NCBI RefSeq assembly: GCF_032854445.1 | Contig: NC_088299.1 | Location: 3,447,001-3,511,000, forward strand | Length of the DNA: 64,000 nt | Source of the DNA: Liolophura sinensis | Taxonomy: Eukaryota > Mollusca > Polyplacophora > Chitonida > Chitonidae | Direction of reading: 5' to 3' | Part shown: positions 30,906 through 48,242 of the stretch, piece after piece | How the letters are laid out: each line of letters opens with the position of its first letter | How positions within the stretch are numbered: the stretch's first letter is position 1 | The notes under the pieces: model-generated | Seen by the model: only the letters and a program-made list of their open reading frames with translations | The model's database searches: none | What the model was told of the DNA's origin: nothing | Translations under genes and position numbers: made by a program

Positions 30906-31955
30906 AGAATTTTGTCAGATACCTGACAATTTCCTAACATGTCAACAAGTTTTCATTTATATACACTGGTGAACAGGTTCATTGTTGTGAAAACAGGAGT
31001 AAACCACCGACCTTTGGCGAGTTACTCTCCAACCTTTCCACAAATGGTCCTCAGTGAATTTCATGTAAAACCACACAAGTGAGAACTGTCAAGCGTTGGA
31101 ACCACTGTCACCATGGAAGCAGGTAAATCTCGAAAATTCCCAACAATGAGATTAAACCAGCATCTTGCATGATCTAGCTATATCCTTTTACCTCAACAAG
31201 ACTTTAAATGGTCAGAGTTCAAACAAAAATTTGAGTTTTATTGTACTTTAAGAATTTATGCACAATAACAGGTACTCCACTTGTTCCACAACAACAAAAA
31301 AACAATTTAACCACACTGACTCTGGTGCCTGCATGATGAGATTTCACAGAGAGAAATTCTGGGATCAATAAGTATCATAATGACTGTAGGATGTGCAGTC
31401 TTCTGATATAAAGCCCACTCACATTTGTTCTGTGGCCATTATTTAGACAAAATGTCATGAGAGTTTACAGCACATGGGTTCAGGGCGCTAATTTTCACTC
31501 CAGGTACATGTATGGGACTTGACCTACCAGTGACATGAAAGATTTGTTTTATACAAATTTTACATTGCAATTTATATTCCCTTCTCCTTTAACTCTGATG
31601 GCAAAGAAGAAAACTGAGGAACTAAAAATAACAAGTGCCACTTTTAAAATGTTGGTGTTTTGTTAGCCATAGGAAGCCGGTTCAACTTTAAACTTCAAAG
31701 GCCAGTGGTAACTGGCCACAGCTGCTCTGTTGTAGAGAGTGTAGTGGCGCACAGCCTGAAATGTGAATGTGGCCTGTGATCAAATGTGAAATGATCACAC
31801 ACTAATCATTTCAATGGCACCATAATTACTGCATCAGCAAACAGTACTGGTTACTATAATATTTTTTCACTGCATAAAGAGATGTCACCATACTTCAGTT
31901 ATCTCCAAACTCTTGAATTGAAGTATAGTATGTAATGTGCTTTATCTTTGTCTTG
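30906..31955. other. Intergenic, convergent side of TRIM and MRPL47
   Basis: No gene, RNA or clear repeat recognised in about 1 kb of AT-rich sequence between the TRIM gene (plus) and MRPL47 (minus). Confidence 0.6.
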
Positions 31956-37954: not shown

Positions 37955-40900
37955 ATGGATCAGAAGAAACTAGGAGACCTTGCTGGGCGTTTGAAGGGCG
38001 GTGGAAAAGGAATGGGAGCTGGACTTGGGCTTCTGGCAGCAGCTGGTGGATTAGTATATGCAGCTGCTCAGTCGATTTACACAGGTACCACAATGACCGA
38101 AAACTTTGCCAAGTTACCAAACAACAACGACAATATTTGTTTGAATTTTTAGTTATTTTGTTGGTCATTTACGCCGTTGTTTGAATTAATCAAACAATTT
38201 GCTGTAGTTTTGGTGTCTAAGGTGGTAAGTCTAGTTAAAATTAACACTGGTAAAGTGGTATATTCCAGTTCCACGTTGGATATACAAATAGTACTTGTAT
38301 GGAAGAAAGGGAAATTGGGGATGTGTGAAGTTGAGGTTGCTGTCACGTGGATTTGCATTGAAATTTTAAGAACGAGTTCATCAGACAACACATGCAGCAA
38401 CCTTGTCTTCAGAACAACCAAGATACCTCTTAACAGGAGTAGGCAATTTGGTTTTCAGTGATTTGCCACATAACCTGTTTCGTTCTAAGTCATTTTTTGT
38501 ACCTTGTTTCAGATACATGTGCGCAGAGCACATATGATTATATGACAGAACCCATAGTATAATAAGGAATGTGTGTACATAAGTTGTTTTTTTTTTGCAA
38601 ATGAAATCTCACATTAACTTAATTAATAAGAAGGTATCCAGAAATATTGGCATCATCAAACACATTCAAGCAAATGTCAATAAAAGAAGACTGCTTATTT
38701 TGCACTACTCTCTGATATATTTCCTTATCTTCCTATGCAAATGTTTTATGGGGTAACACATACATGAGTCATCTCCATCCCTTAGTAATTCTTCAGAAAC
38801 GCATCATCCGCCTCATCACTTTCTCACAAAGACTGGATCATGCGGCTCCAATATTTAAGAACCTCAAAATCTTTCCATTTGCACAAATACACAGATACTC
38901 ATCCTTGCTACTCGCACATAAATTCACTTACCAATCACCCTCTCTTCCTCACAAATTTCATCAGCTGTTCAAAAGACAATCTGACGTTCACAATTACCAA
39001 ACCAGATCCTATTCTTTCAAGGTCCATGTGATTTTTCTAACTTCAAATCTATCCACACATTTCATCAGATCATCAGCCCCAAGGGAGTAGAATAAACTTC
39101 CTCCAAACCTCAAAGTAATCAATGTCACGTCTTTATTCAAATCCAGGTTAAAAGATTTTTTAATTAACAATATTTGATCCACATTAGTCATGCAATCTAT
39201 GAGACAGAAGGTGTCGCACAAAATATTATTCACACTATTGTATTGTTAGCTCATGTAGTTTTGTAGTGTTACATTTCTATGTGAGTTTTTTCCTAAGTAA
39301 ATTTGTTAGTTTTTTAATACAATTGTTCAGTAATTATCGCTCCTCACCAACCATGTATTACTATTTGATAATAATGAGTCAGGGATAGAACAAGTCCCTC
39401 AGATTTTATTCCCGCCGTTTACGAGATATGTAATTATATATATATTTATGTATGGTGAATAAACATTCAATTCACTTCATTTTTAAAAAAAAGCAGAAAT
39501 TAGTAAAACAATTTTGGCTGTTGGAAAGATTTGACATTAAAAAGCATGTGGAAAGCTACATGTAAACACAAACATAGTCTTTACACATCCAGTGATATTT
39601 GCTCATGTGCATATGAAGCCTTTTGTTGAAAATTTTTTAACCTAACAGCTGCTTTCTGTTGGTAAATGCTGCATCATTAACACCATGGTTTTCTTTCTTT
39701 CTTTCAGTTGATGGTGGTCACAGAGCTATTATTTTCAGTCGTATTGGAGGAGTAAAGAATGACATTTTTACAGAGGGAATCCACTTCAGGTACGTAAGCA
39801 GCATACAGTTTTGTCAGAACACAGATAGCAACCAATTGAAAACTTCACCTTTTACTTTGTTCCATCATGTTTCATCAGAAAGGCCAAACAGAATCTGTTG
39901 AAGTGTTTTGTGTATGTATGCATGGGCTATTACATCATACTTAACAATTTTTGGATACAGTGAAGACTAGAGTGCCGTGTTTACATATAACTTTCTGCAT
40001 AACTACTTACGTTAATTCATTCATGCATCCCTGAATGAGGCTGGCCAAATCTGGAGGAGGACCTTTTCAGATGTCACTTTGTAGTCCATCTGAGAAAAAC
40101 GTGTGACACATGTAAGAAGAACGTCTTATTTACAGTGTTTTTCGTTTTATGTAAGTTGAACATCTCTCTCAGGGCATAATCCAGCCCTTCTCAGCGTCAG
40201 ATTACTGGATGCTGTCGTTCCCTCGAAGTGCCCTTTGTGTCAGAAAAGAAGAAAAAAAAAGAAACAGCCCGAATTCATTTTAAGACTTGGATTAACTACA
40301 TAGTCGTAGAAATGTATGAGAATCAAAATGTTCAACAATGAGGTGCCCTTCACCGATGGTTCCACTCCCTGCCCTTCTGAGGCCAGATTAGGCCCAGTCT
40401 CTTTATTTTGAATAAATGAAAAAGCAGTAAAAGCATGTGATAATGGGAAACCTAATGGCACTAAAAGGTGCGTGGAAATCAACAGGTGAATAGCACCCTT
40501 GTCTTCATGATTCCCACCAGTTCTGTTTCAATGCTCTGATCTCTCAGTGCTGAGCCCAAAAAACGAGGCAGCAACAAGCTTGAAGCAACCACTAATTGGC
40601 AAAAGTCCTGAAAACCAGATATTTCTTCATTTATTATATTCATATTGATTTGGTTGTAAATTGAGAGTGAGGATGTCAGTTCTGAGCAGTTCATGAATTT
40701 GTCTGATACATTTTGCATGTGGATTGTATTCTTGTTTTATTTACCTTTGTTTTATTTATTTATTTATTTATTTAATTTTTTTTGCAGAGTCCCGTGGTTT
40801 CATTATCCTATCATTTATGACATTAGATCCAGGCCGAGAAAAATCTCTTCTCCAACTGGTAGCAAAGGTAAGCAAACTGATGGTTGCCTATAAAACCTGT

Positions 40901-43900
40901 ACAATGCTGCACCATTTGACATATTCATAGCACCAGTGAAGGCTGAGTTAGATAATTTACAACGCTAAAAAATATGAAGTTATCAGTCAGACAGCCGTTC
41001 ATGTGACTTTTCCTTCTGTGAGCGGCTTGTATGCTTTTATCTTAGACATGATAGACAGGCTATCAATATTTCGTTGTATTCATTTTAATCCCAAGAAGAT
41101 CTTTCGTGTACTCCAAGTACTCTGGTGTCGAGCATAAGTGCTTAAAATTAGAATTAAAAGTTGGAAATTTTATGTGAACGTCACAAAATGTCATTCTTGC
41201 AAGATGGCACTTAGGATAAAATGATGTGATATGGAAAATTTGGCTTCCATTACACTTGTTTTAAATTTGTTGGACTTGTGTAGTAGTCTGTGTAAAAGTG
41301 TGCCTGTGTGCAGTGCAAACTGGTGAAGCTTACATATATTTATAAACTCATAAATGACAGTAGTAGCATTGCCTTATGTAAAGAACATTATTAGTGTTAC
41401 TAACGATGTCTGAATGTTGAACTATGTAATAATTGCTGAAGACATGAATCAAGCAATTCATAATTGTATATGCATGCATGTTACTGATTTTCATTTTTGA
41501 ATACATTTCTTTACTCTCATGGTTGCCTCCCTTGCCTAGTCGGATTTACAGATGGTCCTTATTCATTGTCCTAGCCAGATATGATGATTTTTGGCTTGTG
41601 TGTATGTAATTAATGTTACTTGTAGTGAGAGTAATGATAGAATGTTGGATCTCTACATTAATATTATATGTTCACTTTATTTTGCCTAGTATGTTACTTC
41701 ACATTTGTATTCTCTTGGTTACCTCCCTTACTTTGTCAGATTTACAGATGGTGAATATTTCTCTGCGTGTGTTGTCGCGGCCAGATCAAATGATGTTACC
41801 AACCATGTACAGACAGCTAGGCACCGACTTTGATGAACGAGTTTTGCCGTCCATAACAAATGAGGTACAGCCACTTGATAGTCTAACTGTAAAAACCGGC
41901 CCGGATAGCACAGTTGGTAGAGCGTCCGCTTCGGAACTGGTAGATCCAGGATCAATCCTTGATCGAGTCACACCTAAGACTTTAAAAGAGGAAGTTGTAA
42001 CTTCCTCGTTTGGCGTTCAGCATGAAGGGGATAGTGCAATGACTGGTTGACCCGTATCAGTATAATGGCTCGGGCGGGGCGGCTTACTTGCCTTCGGTAA
42101 GTCGTCTCAGTGAAGCAGCACTAAATAAAAGAGCGGTGGAAATCCGTCCTGCAACAAGGAGGCACATTACACATGCATGCACCCTAAGGATTCCTTCGTC
42201 GTCATATGACTGAAAAATTGTTGAGTACGACGTTAAACCCCAAGCACTCACTCACTAACTGTAAAAAAAGGAATCTGTATTTACTTCTACTTTTCATACT
42301 AGCTTGATATATTTGCTGAGAACTCAAGGTGTTTGTTGGTGGTGTTGTGGTGTTGTGCTGTTCTGATAGCACAGTTTCAATCCTGGGTTGGGTCACACCT
42401 GACCATACAGCATAAAGGGGATAGTGCAAAGACTGGTTGACCTGTATTTAGTATAATGGCTCGGGTGGGGAGGCTTACTTGCCTTCGGTAAGGTGTCTCA
42501 GTAAAGCAGCACTAGATAAGAGCGGTGGAAATCTGTCCTGTAACAAGGAGACACATTACATACACTCTAAGAACTCCATCGTCGTCATATGGCTGAAAAT
42601 TGTTAAGTATGATGTTAAACCCCAAGCACTCACTCACTCACTCAGTTAAGTTGGGGGCGGGGGGAATGGTGGGGTTTAGTGCACTGTTTGGTACCCCAAA
42701 AATTGCGCATATGAGTTAGGCAAGGATGATATTACAAATCTTTCACAGGCCTTTGCCTGTTTTTTTTTTTTTTTGAACAGTTGTCTGATTATCGCACACC
42801 TTGCAAAAGACCAGGAATGTGATTAGCACACCTAAGTTTATTCTCTCCAGAGTTCTGATTTTTTCAGGTGTGTCTTACCAGCAAACCTAGGCTATGTCTT
42901 AGGAGAGCTTACATGGGAGTGTGATTCGAAAATTCAAAGTCAAACGGCCACTGTACTACCATATTTCTTGTAATTTTTGGGACACCTGGTCTGATTATAA
43001 TGGCCAGTATGAATGTAATTGTAGCAGGAATATTGAGTTTCTTTTTTCTCACATAAACAAATGTAATATTCTACGTTCAACATTACTAATATCTGTCCCA
43101 AAAATTGGAAGATTTGGGGTGGGTGGTAAAATTTAAGGTGAATAATATCTTATTCAAACAAATCTTTTCAATGCAGTAGTACCGTAAGTGGGAAGGTCTG
43201 CCAGCAACCTGCGGATGGTCGTGGGTTTCCCCCACCATAATGCTGGCCGCCGTCGTATAAGTGAAATATTCTTGAGTACGGCGTAAAACACCAATCAAAA
43301 AAAAAAAAAAAATCAATGCAGTAGTACATGTGTGAAGCACAATATTGATTTTGAAGAAGTTAGAGTCCAGTAAAAGAAAAAAAAATGCTTAATGTTTCTT
43401 TTTTGGCACTTCAGGTATTGAAGAGTGTGGTTGCAAAGTTTAATGCATCACAGCTGATAACACAGCGTCAGCAAGTCAGTCTTCTTATCAGGAGAGAACT
43501 GACAGAGCGAGCTAAAGACTTCAACATTATCCTTGATGACGTGTCCATCACTGAGCTCAGTTTTAGCCGAGAGTACACAGCAGCTGTGGAGTCCAAACAG
43601 GTGAGCCATCAGTGACCATGAGGGGTTTCTATTTTTGCAGATAACGCACCATCCCTGGTTAAACGATTTAAGGTATTGTTGAATGGAGATGGTAGGTTAT
43701 TCAGCAGTTCTGTTATGGATATGAATTCAGCGCCAGGAACTTGATAAAAGGAGACTGGGCATTAGTGCGTTTCCAACCTGCAGACGGTTGTGGGATTTCC
43801 CATGAGCCCTCCTCGTTTTTCTCCCACCGTAATTCTGGCAGCTGTCGTATAAGTGAAACATTCTTGAGTACGGTAAAAGTAAAACACCAATGAAATAAAG

Positions 43901-46676
43901 AAATGAATTAATAATTGTTTTATTTTGACTGACAGGTTGCCCAACAAGAGGCTCAGCGTGCCCAGTTTGTTGTGGAGAGAGCCAAACAAGAACGACAACA
44001 AAAAATAGTCCAGGCAGAGGGTGAAGCTCAAGCTGCTAAAATGATATCCTTTGAAAATGATGAGACTTCTGCATCTGCATGATCACTGACCCGCCCCCCC
44101 CCCCCCTTTCCTGCCCCACCCCCCTGCCTTCAAAAAAAGCAAAACAAAACAAAATAAGAAAACAAACAGAAAAATCAAAAATTGTTCATGACTAAGTTGC
44201 TCATTTTGCCACATTCTACGAGCTGTATAGTCTTATAAAAGTTTTTGAGGTTTGTTTGAAAGTAAAGATGACATCCTTCTGGAAATGTGTTAGTTTAAGT
44301 ACCAAAAGTTACAGTTTGTTACATTTATTTGCCTATAAAAATGAAACAAATTGGGCAAAATTATCGTGTATACGCTAAATTTTCCTGCAGGCATTATACC
44401 AGGGGACGGAAAACTCTTTTTCTTTCCGATATCATTTCTGCCAAGTGATGATGACGTGAATCTGACGCTCAGAATCGGGTGAGACGTAACCAGAGTTAAG
44501 AAGTCGCCTGTAATCTTGGTTCCCTTGCAGAGCTGGCGAGCGGGACTGTAAGGCCGGGCGTAGAGTTGGGAGCATAGAGGTCAGAGGTCGTTTGACTGTA
44601 GTACTGTCACCTGACTGATCTGCCATGTGCTGATAGAATTTAAAGGGGATGTTGGTTTATTAATTTTTTTTTTTTGTGTTTTTGCTACTCTCACATTCAA
44701 CCGATTTCTGTGTTTGTGATTCTGTCTTTAGTAATCTGATGGCAGATTAAATTCTTTTAAAAAGGAGCATTCTTTTTGCTAGGAGTACTTTAAAAATCCC
44801 AATGCATTCATAAAGATTATGAATGTAGCTGACATGCAAAGTAATCTGGCAAGTTGTGTGTTTGAGGTGACTAGCCTACCTATTGGGTGGAAGATCACTT
44901 TACACAGTGGTCTCTCATTCCATCCCACTACTTTTCCAGACTTTTTCAAATGGCTCATTGTATAGAATTCAATCTTGGTACATGAATTCACCATAACAAG
45001 TTGCATATCAGGTTCGAGTTTTAGACTCCTACGTCAAGTGTGGACAAATTATGATGTTTTCGGACTTGAGCAGTTTTCCAGACTTGCATGTTTTTCCAAA
45101 CGGTTCATCTTATAGAATTGAAACCTGTTACATGGCTTCACAGCAAATCAAAGATCAAGTTTGTTCCCTACATACTGTGTAGTTCATCAGGCCAAACTTC
45201 AAAATCTGTTTGTTTTGAGTAACTCACCTATGTCTGTTTTTGAGCTTGTTTTGCCATTTTTTAAAAAATTTTTTTAATTCATTTTTTAAAATTGAAACCA
45301 GAATAACTTAAAGTTATTCTGTTAAAGTTAAAGTGTCTGACTGGATTTTCAACCCAAATTATTGCCATATATGATCTGTTGTGGGTTTTGACAGTTATTA
45401 GTCTGATGGCTCAAACCTATAGGGGACATGGCAAACTGCCTGCCCAAAATTCACAACCTGTTAGTTACTCAAAACAAACAGATTTTTAATTTTGGCCTGA
45501 TAAACTACATGTAGATCCCAGTGTAAGATCTGTCCAATATGCTGTGTTGACCTTGACCTTGGTGACATAGGGCAGGCCATCAGTCAGAATCCAGGTTACC
45601 TGAAGCTGAGAAAGATCAGAGCTGCGCAGAACATTGCCAGAACAGTGAGTTGTGTGAACACCAGCAGTGATTGCTCAGCCAGCTTTCAATGACCTTCAAT
45701 GACCACATATTTATCTAGAGCTAAAAATTCTGTTTGTTGCTGTGTTTAAATTTTTTTTTACCTTAGTGTTAAGACGTGTGATGAACATGGGCCCAGTAAC
45801 ATAAGTCCATTGATAAGTCCATTTGATTTTGCCTTGTCAGTATTATTGGCTTCAGATGTCGTCAGGCTTAAGTGGGATATTGTTGATCCTACAATACATG
45901 TAGTGGTACATATATGTGGTTTCCTCTAGGCAATGTCCAGACTCTGCCAGACTTCATTTTGTTTCCTCCATGCTGTGTTTAGTTTCTTCTATGCTATATT
46001 TAGTTTCCTCCATGCTATATTTAGATTCTGCCATGATATATTTAGTTCCCTCCATGTTGTATTTAGTTTCTATGAGGCTGTATATTTCCCTCAGGCTAAT
46101 CCTGACTGCTGTCGTTCAAGTGATATATTCTTAATTGTGACCACAAATAATCAGTTTCTTGCTGCTGTAATGCTGTTTGCTTTGAGCATGGTGCAAAACA
46201 CCAGTCAAGCAAGCAACAGCAAAGATCAGGTGAAATAAATAAATAAGTCATCAATATTGATCAGTTCAGCACTGTGATGCCTGAGGTAGAGAGTCCTCAT
46301 CATGAGCGGGAATCCTTGACTTGAAAACTGGCTGCCTTGTACGCCCTGTGCGGAAAATAAAAGGCGAAGTATTGGCCTTACAATCTCAGTATGCAATGAC
46401 TGAATACAGAGTCTGCCCCTAATTTACATGTACCTTCAATTTGCTCCAAGCTACAATGTAGTTTCAATTTGCATTTGTAGGATAAATAATTTGCATGCAT
46501 GCTCAGATTTTGGTAACTGAGATTTATCTTTGATGCTTGAAATTTCGTTTTCATATTTTTTACAGGTGGCAACCTCACAGAACCGTGTGTATTTGAATGC
46601 AGGGTCATTGATGTTAAACATCTTAGATGCAGAGTTTGACACATCAGCAGAAGCGCTATCAAAGAAGAGAAAGTAG
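37955..46676 (+). CDS. PHB2: Prohibitin-2
   Basis: Eight exons: 37955-38084, 39708-39789, 40788-40867, 41740-41864, 43415-43600, 43936-44043, 45567-45644, 46566-46676. The product is 299 residues, the same length as human PHB2, with consistent phases. An N-terminal hydrophobic anchor (about 20-40) is followed by the PHB/SPFH domain ([46 protein letters not shown]) and a coiled coil (from [12 protein letters not shown], about 200-250). The C-terminus is [19 protein letters not shown], then [15 protein letters not shown]. Prohibitin-2 forms ring complexes with prohibitin-1 in the mitochondrial inner membrane and is an inner-membrane mitophagy receptor. Introns 1-5 and 7 are GT-AG. Intron 6 is AT-AC with U12-type signals; without its removal translation stops after 13 extra codons. 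Introns carry LINE, SINE and MITE remnants. Candidate poly(A) signals are near 47283 and 47512. Confidence 0.97.
38750..39480 (+). mobile_element. Non-LTR retrotransposon 3' fragment
   Basis: A frame from about 38750 encodes the C-terminal region typical of CR1/L2-like reverse transcriptase proteins: [40 protein letters not shown], then an NYQTRS motif. The rest of the ORF is missing; an AT-rich 3' region follows and ends near AATAAACATTCAATTCA. PHB2 intron 1, same strand as PHB2. Confidence 0.75.
40172..40402. mobile_element. Possible diverged inverted-repeat element
   Basis: Left CAGGGCATAATCCAGCCCTT resembles the reverse complement of the right end (TGGGCCTAATCTGGCCTCAG), with moderate mismatch. 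It is non-coding and in PHB2 intron 2. It may be an old MITE, but similarity is low enough for chance. Confidence 0.3.
41519..41597 (+). pseudogene. Decayed partial copy of PHB2 exon 4 with its intron border
   Basis: GGTTGCCTCCCTTGCCTAGT then CGGATTTACAGATGGT copies the true exon 4 border (GGTTACCTCCCTTACTTTGT then CAGATTTACAGATGGT at 41719-41752). Similarity resumes at CTAGCCAGAT-ATGATGAT against CGGCCAGATCAAATGATG after a gap of about 13 bases. The acceptor AG is GG in this copy, so it should not be spliced as an exon. Confidence 0.7.
41896..42254 (+). repeat. SINE-B copy, full length, with TSD
   Basis: Complete tRNA-like head (CGGCCCGGATAGCACAGTTG, AGAGCGTCCGCTTCGG), B box, hairpin-like GAGGAAGTTGTAACTTCCTC, body and CACTCACTCAC tail. 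Flanked by the perfect 13-bp duplication CTAACTGTAAAAA at 41883-41895 and 42255-42267. PHB2 intron 4, 31 bp from exon 4. It looks young. Confidence 0.95.
42360..42648 (+). repeat. SINE-B copy, diverged and internally deleted
   Basis: It has a B-box region (CAATCCTGGGTTGGGTCACA) and a body like the copy 100 bp upstream (AAGGGGATAGTGCAAAGACT, GGTAAGGTGTCTCAGTAAAG), with tail ACTCACTCACTCA. The AAAGAGGAAGTTGTAACTTC block is missing. PHB2 intron 4. Confidence 0.85.
42972..43106. mobile_element. Small inverted-repeat element with perfect 13-bp ends
   Basis: AATTTTTGGGACA at the left and TGTCCCAAAAATT at the right are exact inverted repeats. The interior matches the element at 23119-23309 (ATGTAATTGTAGCAGGAATA, GAGTTTCTTTTTTCTCA). 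Non-coding; PHB2 intron 4. Confidence 0.75.
43183..43312 (+). repeat. SINE-A copy, 5'-truncated, with TSD
   Basis: Starts at GTAAGTGGGAAGGTCTGCCA and ends with CACCAATC plus a run of A. Flanked by the 15-bp repeat TCAATGCAGTAGTAC at 43168-43182 and 43313-43327. It ends 102 bp before PHB2 exon 5. Confidence 0.92.
43772..43912 (+). repeat. SINE-A copy, 5'-truncated, older
   Basis: From CCAACCTGCAGACGGTTGTG to ACACCAATGAAATAAAGAAA, with small changes such as ACGGTAAAAGTAAAACACC. It lies immediately before PHB2 exon 6 (43936). Confidence 0.85.
44044..44053 (+). promoter_or_regulatory. U12-type 5' splice site of PHB2 intron 6
   Basis: Exon 6 ends AAA ATG and the intron begins ATATCCTTTG, which equals the U12 consensus RTATCCTTT with A at position 1. 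The reading frame K-M continues correctly only if the intron starts here. Confidence 0.93.
44432..44626 (-). other. Uncharacterised coding-like frame antisense in the PHB2 U12 intron
   Basis: A 64-codon ATG frame opens [15 protein letters not shown] and contains [20 protein letters not shown]. Local base composition is more GC-rich than the surrounding intron. No family is recognised. It could be a nested small gene, one exon of a minus-strand gene, a retroposed fragment or chance. Confidence 0.3.
45171..45517. mobile_element. MITE-like element with about 50-bp inverted ends
   Basis: Left GTAGTTCATCAGGCCAAACT then TCAAAATCTGTTTGTTTTGA. The reverse complement of the right end reads GTAGTTTATCAGGCCAAAAT then TAAAAATCTGTTTGTTTTGA. 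Non-coding, AT-rich centre. It lies inside PHB2's U12 intron, and its right end is only about 50 bp from the 3' splice site. Confidence 0.8.
45550..45566 (+). promoter_or_regulatory. U12-type branch site and AC 3' splice site of PHB2 intron 6
   Basis: ACCTTGAC (45550-45557) fits the U12 branch consensus YCCTTRAC. The intron ends GGTGAC (45561-45566), an AC terminus, about 10 bases later. Exon 7 then reads ATA GGG CAG GCC (I-G-Q-A), which aligns with human L-G-E-A. The nearby AG at 45569-45570 would break the frame. Confidence 0.9.
45950..46083. repeat. 21-22-bp tandem repeat, about 6 diverged units
   Basis: Unit of the form TTTCCTCCATGCTATATTTAG. Units differ by substitutions. It is open in two frames only because of its simple composition. 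PHB2 intron 7. Confidence 0.85.
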
Positions 46677-47895
46677 TTCACACGTAGACAATTTGATCAA
46701 TGCATCTAATTTTGTTTTATCAGTCTGCGTTAGTTATCTCCCCTGAAAGAATTTCTCATTATTTTGCGCTAATTTCTAAATACATATAGATGTATTACCT
46801 ACATGTTGATATTGTCCCACTGATGTTTTCAGGATTAAGTGTAAAATACATTTGGAATGGCTTAAAAGTGGATAGACTGTTAAGCTTGTATGATGTTACT
46901 GGAAATGTCATCCAGGATATAGGTGAATTGCAGGATCAAACCTAGTAACCATGGTTTGAAAAGTGAAATAATCTTAAATCGTTGCACATCTGAGAATTTA
47001 TTGGTACACGGGAAATGCTTTGTTACCACATAGTTCATTTAAGGAGGAGGTCAGCTATGATTGCTGGTAAATCTGAGACTATTATACAGGTTGCACTAAA
47101 AATGTTGTCAGAATGTGAAGTTAAATTGATATTCAAATTGGTGATACAATTTCGGGACTTGCATGGGTTTCATTTGTGAAGACTGACTTCTGCCTGTGTT
47201 ATCTTACCACTGTAACTGCCAACAATCATAGTGCTGCTGTTGACAAATTTTCTTGTTTTGAGATATATTGAACTATATTAAAAATAAATAAGAGTAAATA
47301 ATAGGCAATGAGAGTGGGAATATTTCACTTTTGTTCATGGTCTGCTTTGAAATAAGCATTGTTATAACCAATTTTGAAAATCATAGAAGTCTCTCTTTGA
47401 ATTTTTATCAAGAGAACAAATATTTCTATAGTGCTTAAACATTTAGCGTTTTGTTCTGGTATGCCTTTAAGTGATATTGTCAACACCAGTATTGTAAGCG
47501 CATGTAAATGAATAAATGGGGATTTACTCTAATCTCCTTACGGCTAATCCTTTCTAGAAAATCGTTTCTGCGTAAAGTGCTGAGTTATTGATGTAGTGCT
47601 ACATCGTAGATAGTGTATACTGAGTGCATATATATGCACAATTCTGAGAGAAATGTTAACCGACCAAACTGAGACAGATGTAGGGTCATTTTTTCGTCTT
47701 TTTTTTTAAATGAATGAAACATTGTAATATAAAGAAAATGGCTTCCTTGAATATGTTAACCAAGAACAAAGTGTGTGTGTCTTTAGGGATTTTGTCATTC
47801 TTCGAACATACACAACTGTTCCTATTCTAATGGATGCTTATCTTGCGGATCATGTCATTGAATAAATCCATCTTGACTTATTTCGACTTCACTTG
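46677..47895 (+). other. PHB2 3' UTR and flank
   Basis: AT-rich, no coding signal. AATAAA words at about 47283 and 47512 are possible polyadenylation signals for PHB2. Confidence 0.5.
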
Positions 47896-47899
47896 TATA

Positions 47900-48242
47900 T
47901 TGTGCCGTCGCCGTCGTCCCCCGTTTTCCGCGGTAAAGTCGGAAGTCCCAAGATCAAACCCGGGTCGGGTCATACACGTACGAAAGATTTTAAAAATGGT
48001 ATTTGTTGCTGCCTCGCTAGGCGCTCAGCGCTGAGAGGCCAGAGCAAGGAAACATGACTGGTTGGCCCGGTGTGTTGACTGGGAGGGCTGTCCTGTCTGG
48101 TGCTTTCAGCATGATACTTCAGTGGCGGCAGCACTTTGGCGGCATGGACTCACAAGAAGACACATATGTACACACACCTTATGACTCCCCGTCGTAATAT
48201 GACTGAAACATTGCTGAGTAGGACGTAAAATGCAAAGCATTG
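47900..48242 (+). repeat. SINE-C copy
   Basis: Head with a GATCAAACCCGGGTCGGGTC B-box region, body blocks GATTTTAAAAATGGTATTTG, TGACTGGTTGGCCCGGTGTG and GCAGCACTTTGGCGGCATGG shared with 3690-3985, and a tail ATATGACTGAAACATTGCTG. Target duplications not resolved. Confidence 0.8.

Follow-up and report, generated by a model that had tools for sequence, protein, structure and literature searches.

U12-type introns with AT and AC termini have been described in the prohibitin-2 gene (PHB2) of both an insect and a vertebrate. Table 2 of PMC2831892, by Lin and colleagues, assigns an AT-AC U12 intron to the Drosophila PHB2 gene, CG15081/l(2)03709, and records a human orthologue of that intron, also U12 and of the same subtype. 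The minor intron of PHB2 is also covered by a study in human cells (PMC8034651), work on embryonic stem cells used Phb2 as a test gene for U12 splicing (PMC3695530), and a survey reports that minor introns are relatively enriched in molluscs (PMC10639083). We analysed a stretch of 64,000 nucleotides (nt) from contig NC_088299.1 of the mollusc Liolophura sinensis, hereafter the window, which carries PHB2. The genome also has eight haemocyanin beta-sandwich domains on a single stretch of contig C8, a molluscan family that identifies the animal as a mollusc. The sixth intron of this gene, at 44044-45566, is very probably the ancestral U12-type AT-AC intron of PHB2 kept in this mollusc. It agrees with the fly and human entry of the PMC2831892 table in gene (PHB2, identified by sequence) and in subtype (AT-AC). 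The Drosophila intron is intron 3 of 5, whereas that of Liolophura is intron 6 of 7 when coding exons are counted.

Our analysis covered the coding exons of PHB2. The coding region is complete on the + strand (37955-46676) and its eight exons give a spliced translation of 299 amino acids, the same length as human PHB2, with no internal stop and with all borders in order. Residues 72-299 of human PHB2 (8rrh_B) align to residues 72-299 of the window protein with an E value of 1.8e-113 and without a gap, including over the junction of exons 6 and 7. A Pfam search of the protein returned Band_7, a second match, to Med2, falling below its cut-off. GT-AG borders are found in six of the seven introns and AT-AC borders in intron 6.

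The borders of intron 6 were examined by scoring against human PHB2 all cuts with the last exon base at 43980-44109 and the first exon base at 45500-45639. Among these, 4,628 border pairs were in frame and stop-free. Four pairs, with the termini TC-TA, AT-AT, TA-CA and AT-AC, tied at the top score of 260 and give an identical best protein, because the first bases of the intron, ATA, repeat the start of the next exon; AT-AC is the sole recognised class among the four. There were 22 AT-AC pairs in all, the runner-up of which scored 249 and adds three residues. GT-AG (10 pairs), GC-AG (49 pairs) and AT-AG (40 pairs) borders were rejected, as their best scores were 204, 236 and 246, respectively. 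The original prediction for this DNA had proposed a U12-type AT-AC intron in PHB2 at these positions, and our data bear out its borders, termini, branch word CCTTGAC and reading frame. It had also held that only these borders keep the frame. That statement was too strong, given the many in-frame pairs and the four-way tie, and it survives in the narrower form that no other recognised class stands among the top pairs.

The signals inside these borders resemble those of U12-type introns in general in the 5' site, the branch word, the termini and the lack of a pyrimidine tract. The 5' word RTATCCTT is present as ATATCCTTT exactly at the border defined by the protein, and the probable branch A of CCTTGAC lies 10 nt before the end of the intron. 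The commonest U12 branch word is CCTTAAC, from which the word found here differs by one base.

The same genome contains matches to all four of the minor-spliceosome small nuclear RNAs (snRNAs) U11, U12, U4atac and U6atac, in agreement with the predicted class of the intron. The best candidates were scored with the gathering score as cut-off, and the counts are thus lower bounds: at least five U12 matches, four of them over the cut-off, and at least two U6atac, two U11 and one U4atac matches over it. Searches of 14 control genomes gave no match to any of the four snRNAs, but all of these genomes are prokaryotes and so provide a weak control. Pairing by eye with one copy of each snRNA showed that ATATCCTTT is complementary to AAGGA in U6atac and to AAAGG within the 5' end of U11, and that CCTTGAC is complementary to GTAAGG in U12, a pairing in which the branch A would be bulged. 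Four of these U12 matches, two strong and two weak, cluster within 18 kb (G000:C1:65318678-65336263), which suggests a small tandem family.

Judged by these signals, intron 6 is probably removed by the minor spliceosome. U11 and U12 would jointly recognise ATATCCTTT and CCTTGAC, U6atac would take over from U11 at the 5' site and A 45556 would attack A 44044, whereupon exon 6 (...AAKM) would be joined to exon 7 (IGQA...) to give the 299-residue prohibitin-2. Recognition, exchange and attack in this form are established steps of minor splicing.

Several points weigh against the assignment of intron 6 to the ancestral U12 class. The identity of its position with that of the fly and human intron is deduced from the gene, the subtype and the rarity of such introns. 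The longer branch consensus is TTCCTTRAY, which the word and its flank match at 7 of 9 positions, the two preceding bases, GA, being the ones that miss it. An AG at 45569-45570, 4 nt downstream of the AC, is also plausibly spaced from the branch A; we rejected it as the true 3' end because splicing to it from the same 5' site would take away four further bases and break the frame. Moreover, the 5' word and the branch word, taken alone, are no commoner than chance. In the window ATATCCTT occurs 3 times against 2.57 expected (the two further copies are at 31180 (+) and 51422 (-)), and genome-wide ATATCCTTT occurs 7,881 times and the same word reversed, as a control, 7,480 times. Over the 128,000 positions of both window strands there are 3 instances of RTATCCTT and 19 of CCTTRAY, 16 of the latter having a suitably spaced AC or AG. 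The feature that does stand above chance is the coincidence of both words with borders fixed by the protein. By our arithmetic from window frequencies, the 5' word would fall at one of the four allowed cuts with a chance of about 1e-4, and the corresponding chance for a correctly spaced branch word is about 1e-3.

Removal of intron 6 by the major spliceosome, either as a major-class AT-AC intron or through shifted GT-AG borders, appears extremely unlikely. The best GT-AG pair, besides its low score, deletes nine residues, seven of which are identical in human PHB2. In sodium channel genes, every major-class AT-AC intron described in PMC2831892 has G at position +5, whereas intron 6 has C there, and the last 25 nt of intron 6 lack the T-rich stretch seen in the other PHB2 introns. 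A U12 intron acquired independently, at a site unlike that of the fly and human intron, must also be considered, the comparison having been made at the level of gene and subtype. Fly and human nevertheless share both the gene and the rare subtype, and new U12 introns are rare (of 19 U12 introns in fly, a single one is reported as converted from U2 to U12; PMC2831892), which makes an independent origin very unlikely.

The partial copies of the PHB2 3' end that lie downstream (see below) speak for a further alternative, in which the window PHB2 would itself be a non-functional copy and its borders meaningless. Against this stand the complete, stop-free 299 codons of human length with borders in order, and the result of a genome search in which exons 6 and 7 matched PHB2-like sequence solely at this locus, PHB1 apart; we regard the probability of a non-functional copy as negligible. 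In PHB1 (G000:C4:19423571-19430708) an exon runs unbroken through the matching site (AAEL-IAN in human, AAQL-LAK here). An intron at this site is thus a feature of PHB2 and not of its paralogue, and PHB1 was rejected as a second U12 intron host.

Because fly and human PHB2 U12 introns are in print, the probable ancestral U12-type intron described here is already known in kind and in gene, and is an ordinary, well-precedented case in another species. A literature search for a mollusc PHB2 U12 intron, with most subscription papers outside its reach, found no paper, and so the mollusc copy may be undescribed within the literature searched. It adds a mollusc to an intron known from insect and vertebrate, an occurrence that would fit retention since the bilaterian ancestor, and raises no new question by itself.

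The effects of impaired minor splicing on PHB2 have been described in other animals. Among U12 genes, PHB2 shows the strongest reduction in U6atac-mutant flies, and it was suggested that the downstream effects may stem primarily from its faulty splicing (PMC2952598). The intron described here likewise marks PHB2 as a possible route by which minor-spliceosome defects affect mitochondria, a role already proposed for the fly in that paper. Two further fly studies concern Phb2: one counts it among the classical U12 genes and notes partial residual splicing (PMC7644725), and the other reports a reduced level of its protein in a minor-splicing mutant (PMC12084885). When minor snRNAs are blocked in human cells, alternative splicing around the minor intron of PHB2 increases; overall the increase is mainly exon skipping, and the text leaves the kind of event at PHB2 unspecified (PMC8034651). 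The original prediction had tied PHB2 to minor splicing in this lineage and had left open whether the intron is present in other animals. An AT-AC U12 intron in PHB2 is listed for fly and human (PMC2831892), so that the tie itself holds but is not specific to the lineage.

If minor splicing failed in Liolophura, an RNA retaining intron 6 would be read through 12 intronic sense codons to a TGA as the 13th. The predicted stop is thus encountered, although after 12 and not 13 intronic codons. By the rule of nonsense-mediated decay, a stop far upstream of an exon junction leads to decay of the RNA. Since the exon 7-8 junction is a long way downstream of this TGA, decay of the intron-retaining RNA is expected rather than the truncated protein foreseen originally, which is just one outcome among others. 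Exon skipping is another, and skipping of exon 6, exon 7 or both keeps the frame because the lengths of exons 5-7 are multiples of three. A cryptic GT-AG pair, joining 44020 to 45571, would likewise lead to an in-frame loss of nine residues. One could imagine that in this mollusc the dose of prohibitin-2, and hence mitochondrial capacity, is governed by minor splicing, and that PHB2 is not simply lost when U6atac is limiting but made in shortened, readable forms that lack parts of the coiled coil. We consider this idea unlikely; if true, such forms would come from the symmetric exons 5-7 and the in-frame cryptic pair.

Table 1. Predicted features of PHB2 and its sixth intron in the Liolophura sinensis window.
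Feature	Position	Strand	Basis
U12-type AT-AC intron, intron 6 of 7, phase 0, 1,523 nt, after codon 237	44044-45566	+	sequence, border scan, spliced frame
U12-type 5' splice site ATATCCTTT	44044-44052	+	sequence, border scan; complementary words in U11 and U6atac copies
Branch word CCTTGAC, probable branch A 45556	45551-45557	+	sequence; complementary GTAAGG in U12 copy
3' splice site AC	45565-45566	+	sequence, border scan
In-frame TGA reached on intron retention	44080-44082	+	spliced frame
Candidate cryptic GT (AGG/GTGAAG), with AG 45569-45570	44021-44022	+	border scan, spliced frame
Exon 1 (first coding, start codon 37955)	37955-38084	+	local alignment to human N-terminus; 299-residue spliced frame
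Exon 2	39708-39789	+	tblastn with human PHB2; GT-AG borders
Exon 3	40788-40867	+	tblastn with human PHB2; GT-AG borders
Exon 4	41740-41864	+	tblastn with human PHB2; GT-AG borders
Exon 5, 186 nt	43415-43600	+	tblastn with human PHB2; spliced frame
Exon 6, 108 nt, end ...AAKM	43936-44043	+	tblastn with human PHB2; spliced frame
Exon 7, 78 nt, start IGQA...	45567-45644	+	tblastn with human PHB2; spliced frame
Exon 8, including stop codon	46566-46676	+	tblastn with human PHB2; spliced frame

The Phb2 exon coordinates given in PMC5063418 include a 77-nt exon near the gene end, compared with 78 nt for exon 7 here; they were not used as evidence. The 3' end of the window PHB2, running from the last part of intron 7 through exon 8 into downstream sequence (46083-48227), occurs twice more on the same contig, about 28 and 58 kb downstream and with about 91% DNA identity (L047 1063-3201; L048 1032-2566). 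The normal end is kept in one exon 8 copy and lost in the other. The similarity begins within intron 7, so that in the 3.2 kb read the U12 intron is absent from both copies.

The U12 intron itself contains an inverted repeat shortly before the branch word, with arms of 50 nt at 45178-45227 and 45460-45509 that are 92% complementary and separated by 232 nt, and which could form a hairpin in the pre-mRNA. Another segment of the intron, 44910-45163, is a dispersed repeat: it accounts for 36 of the 41 genome matches listed for 44800-45540, self and arm matches aside, at 66-88% identity, and one of the 41 (81%, on C9) overlaps an arm of the inverted repeat. A 50-nt piece of 44910-45163 is repeated 150 nt further on.

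Elsewhere in the genome, six Band_7 matches lie within about 560 kb of one contig (G000:C13:7619780-8183765), four of them with stops inside the matched stretch, which may be introns or broken copies. In scans of prokaryote and virus collections, prohibitin-like proteins were found on one viral contig (of 11 pattern-matching stretches) and on 38 prokaryote-labelled contigs (of 95), among them L009 (47% identity), which is labelled as a metagenome-assembled genome of Rickettsiales and might be eukaryotic; none of these was used in the analysis.
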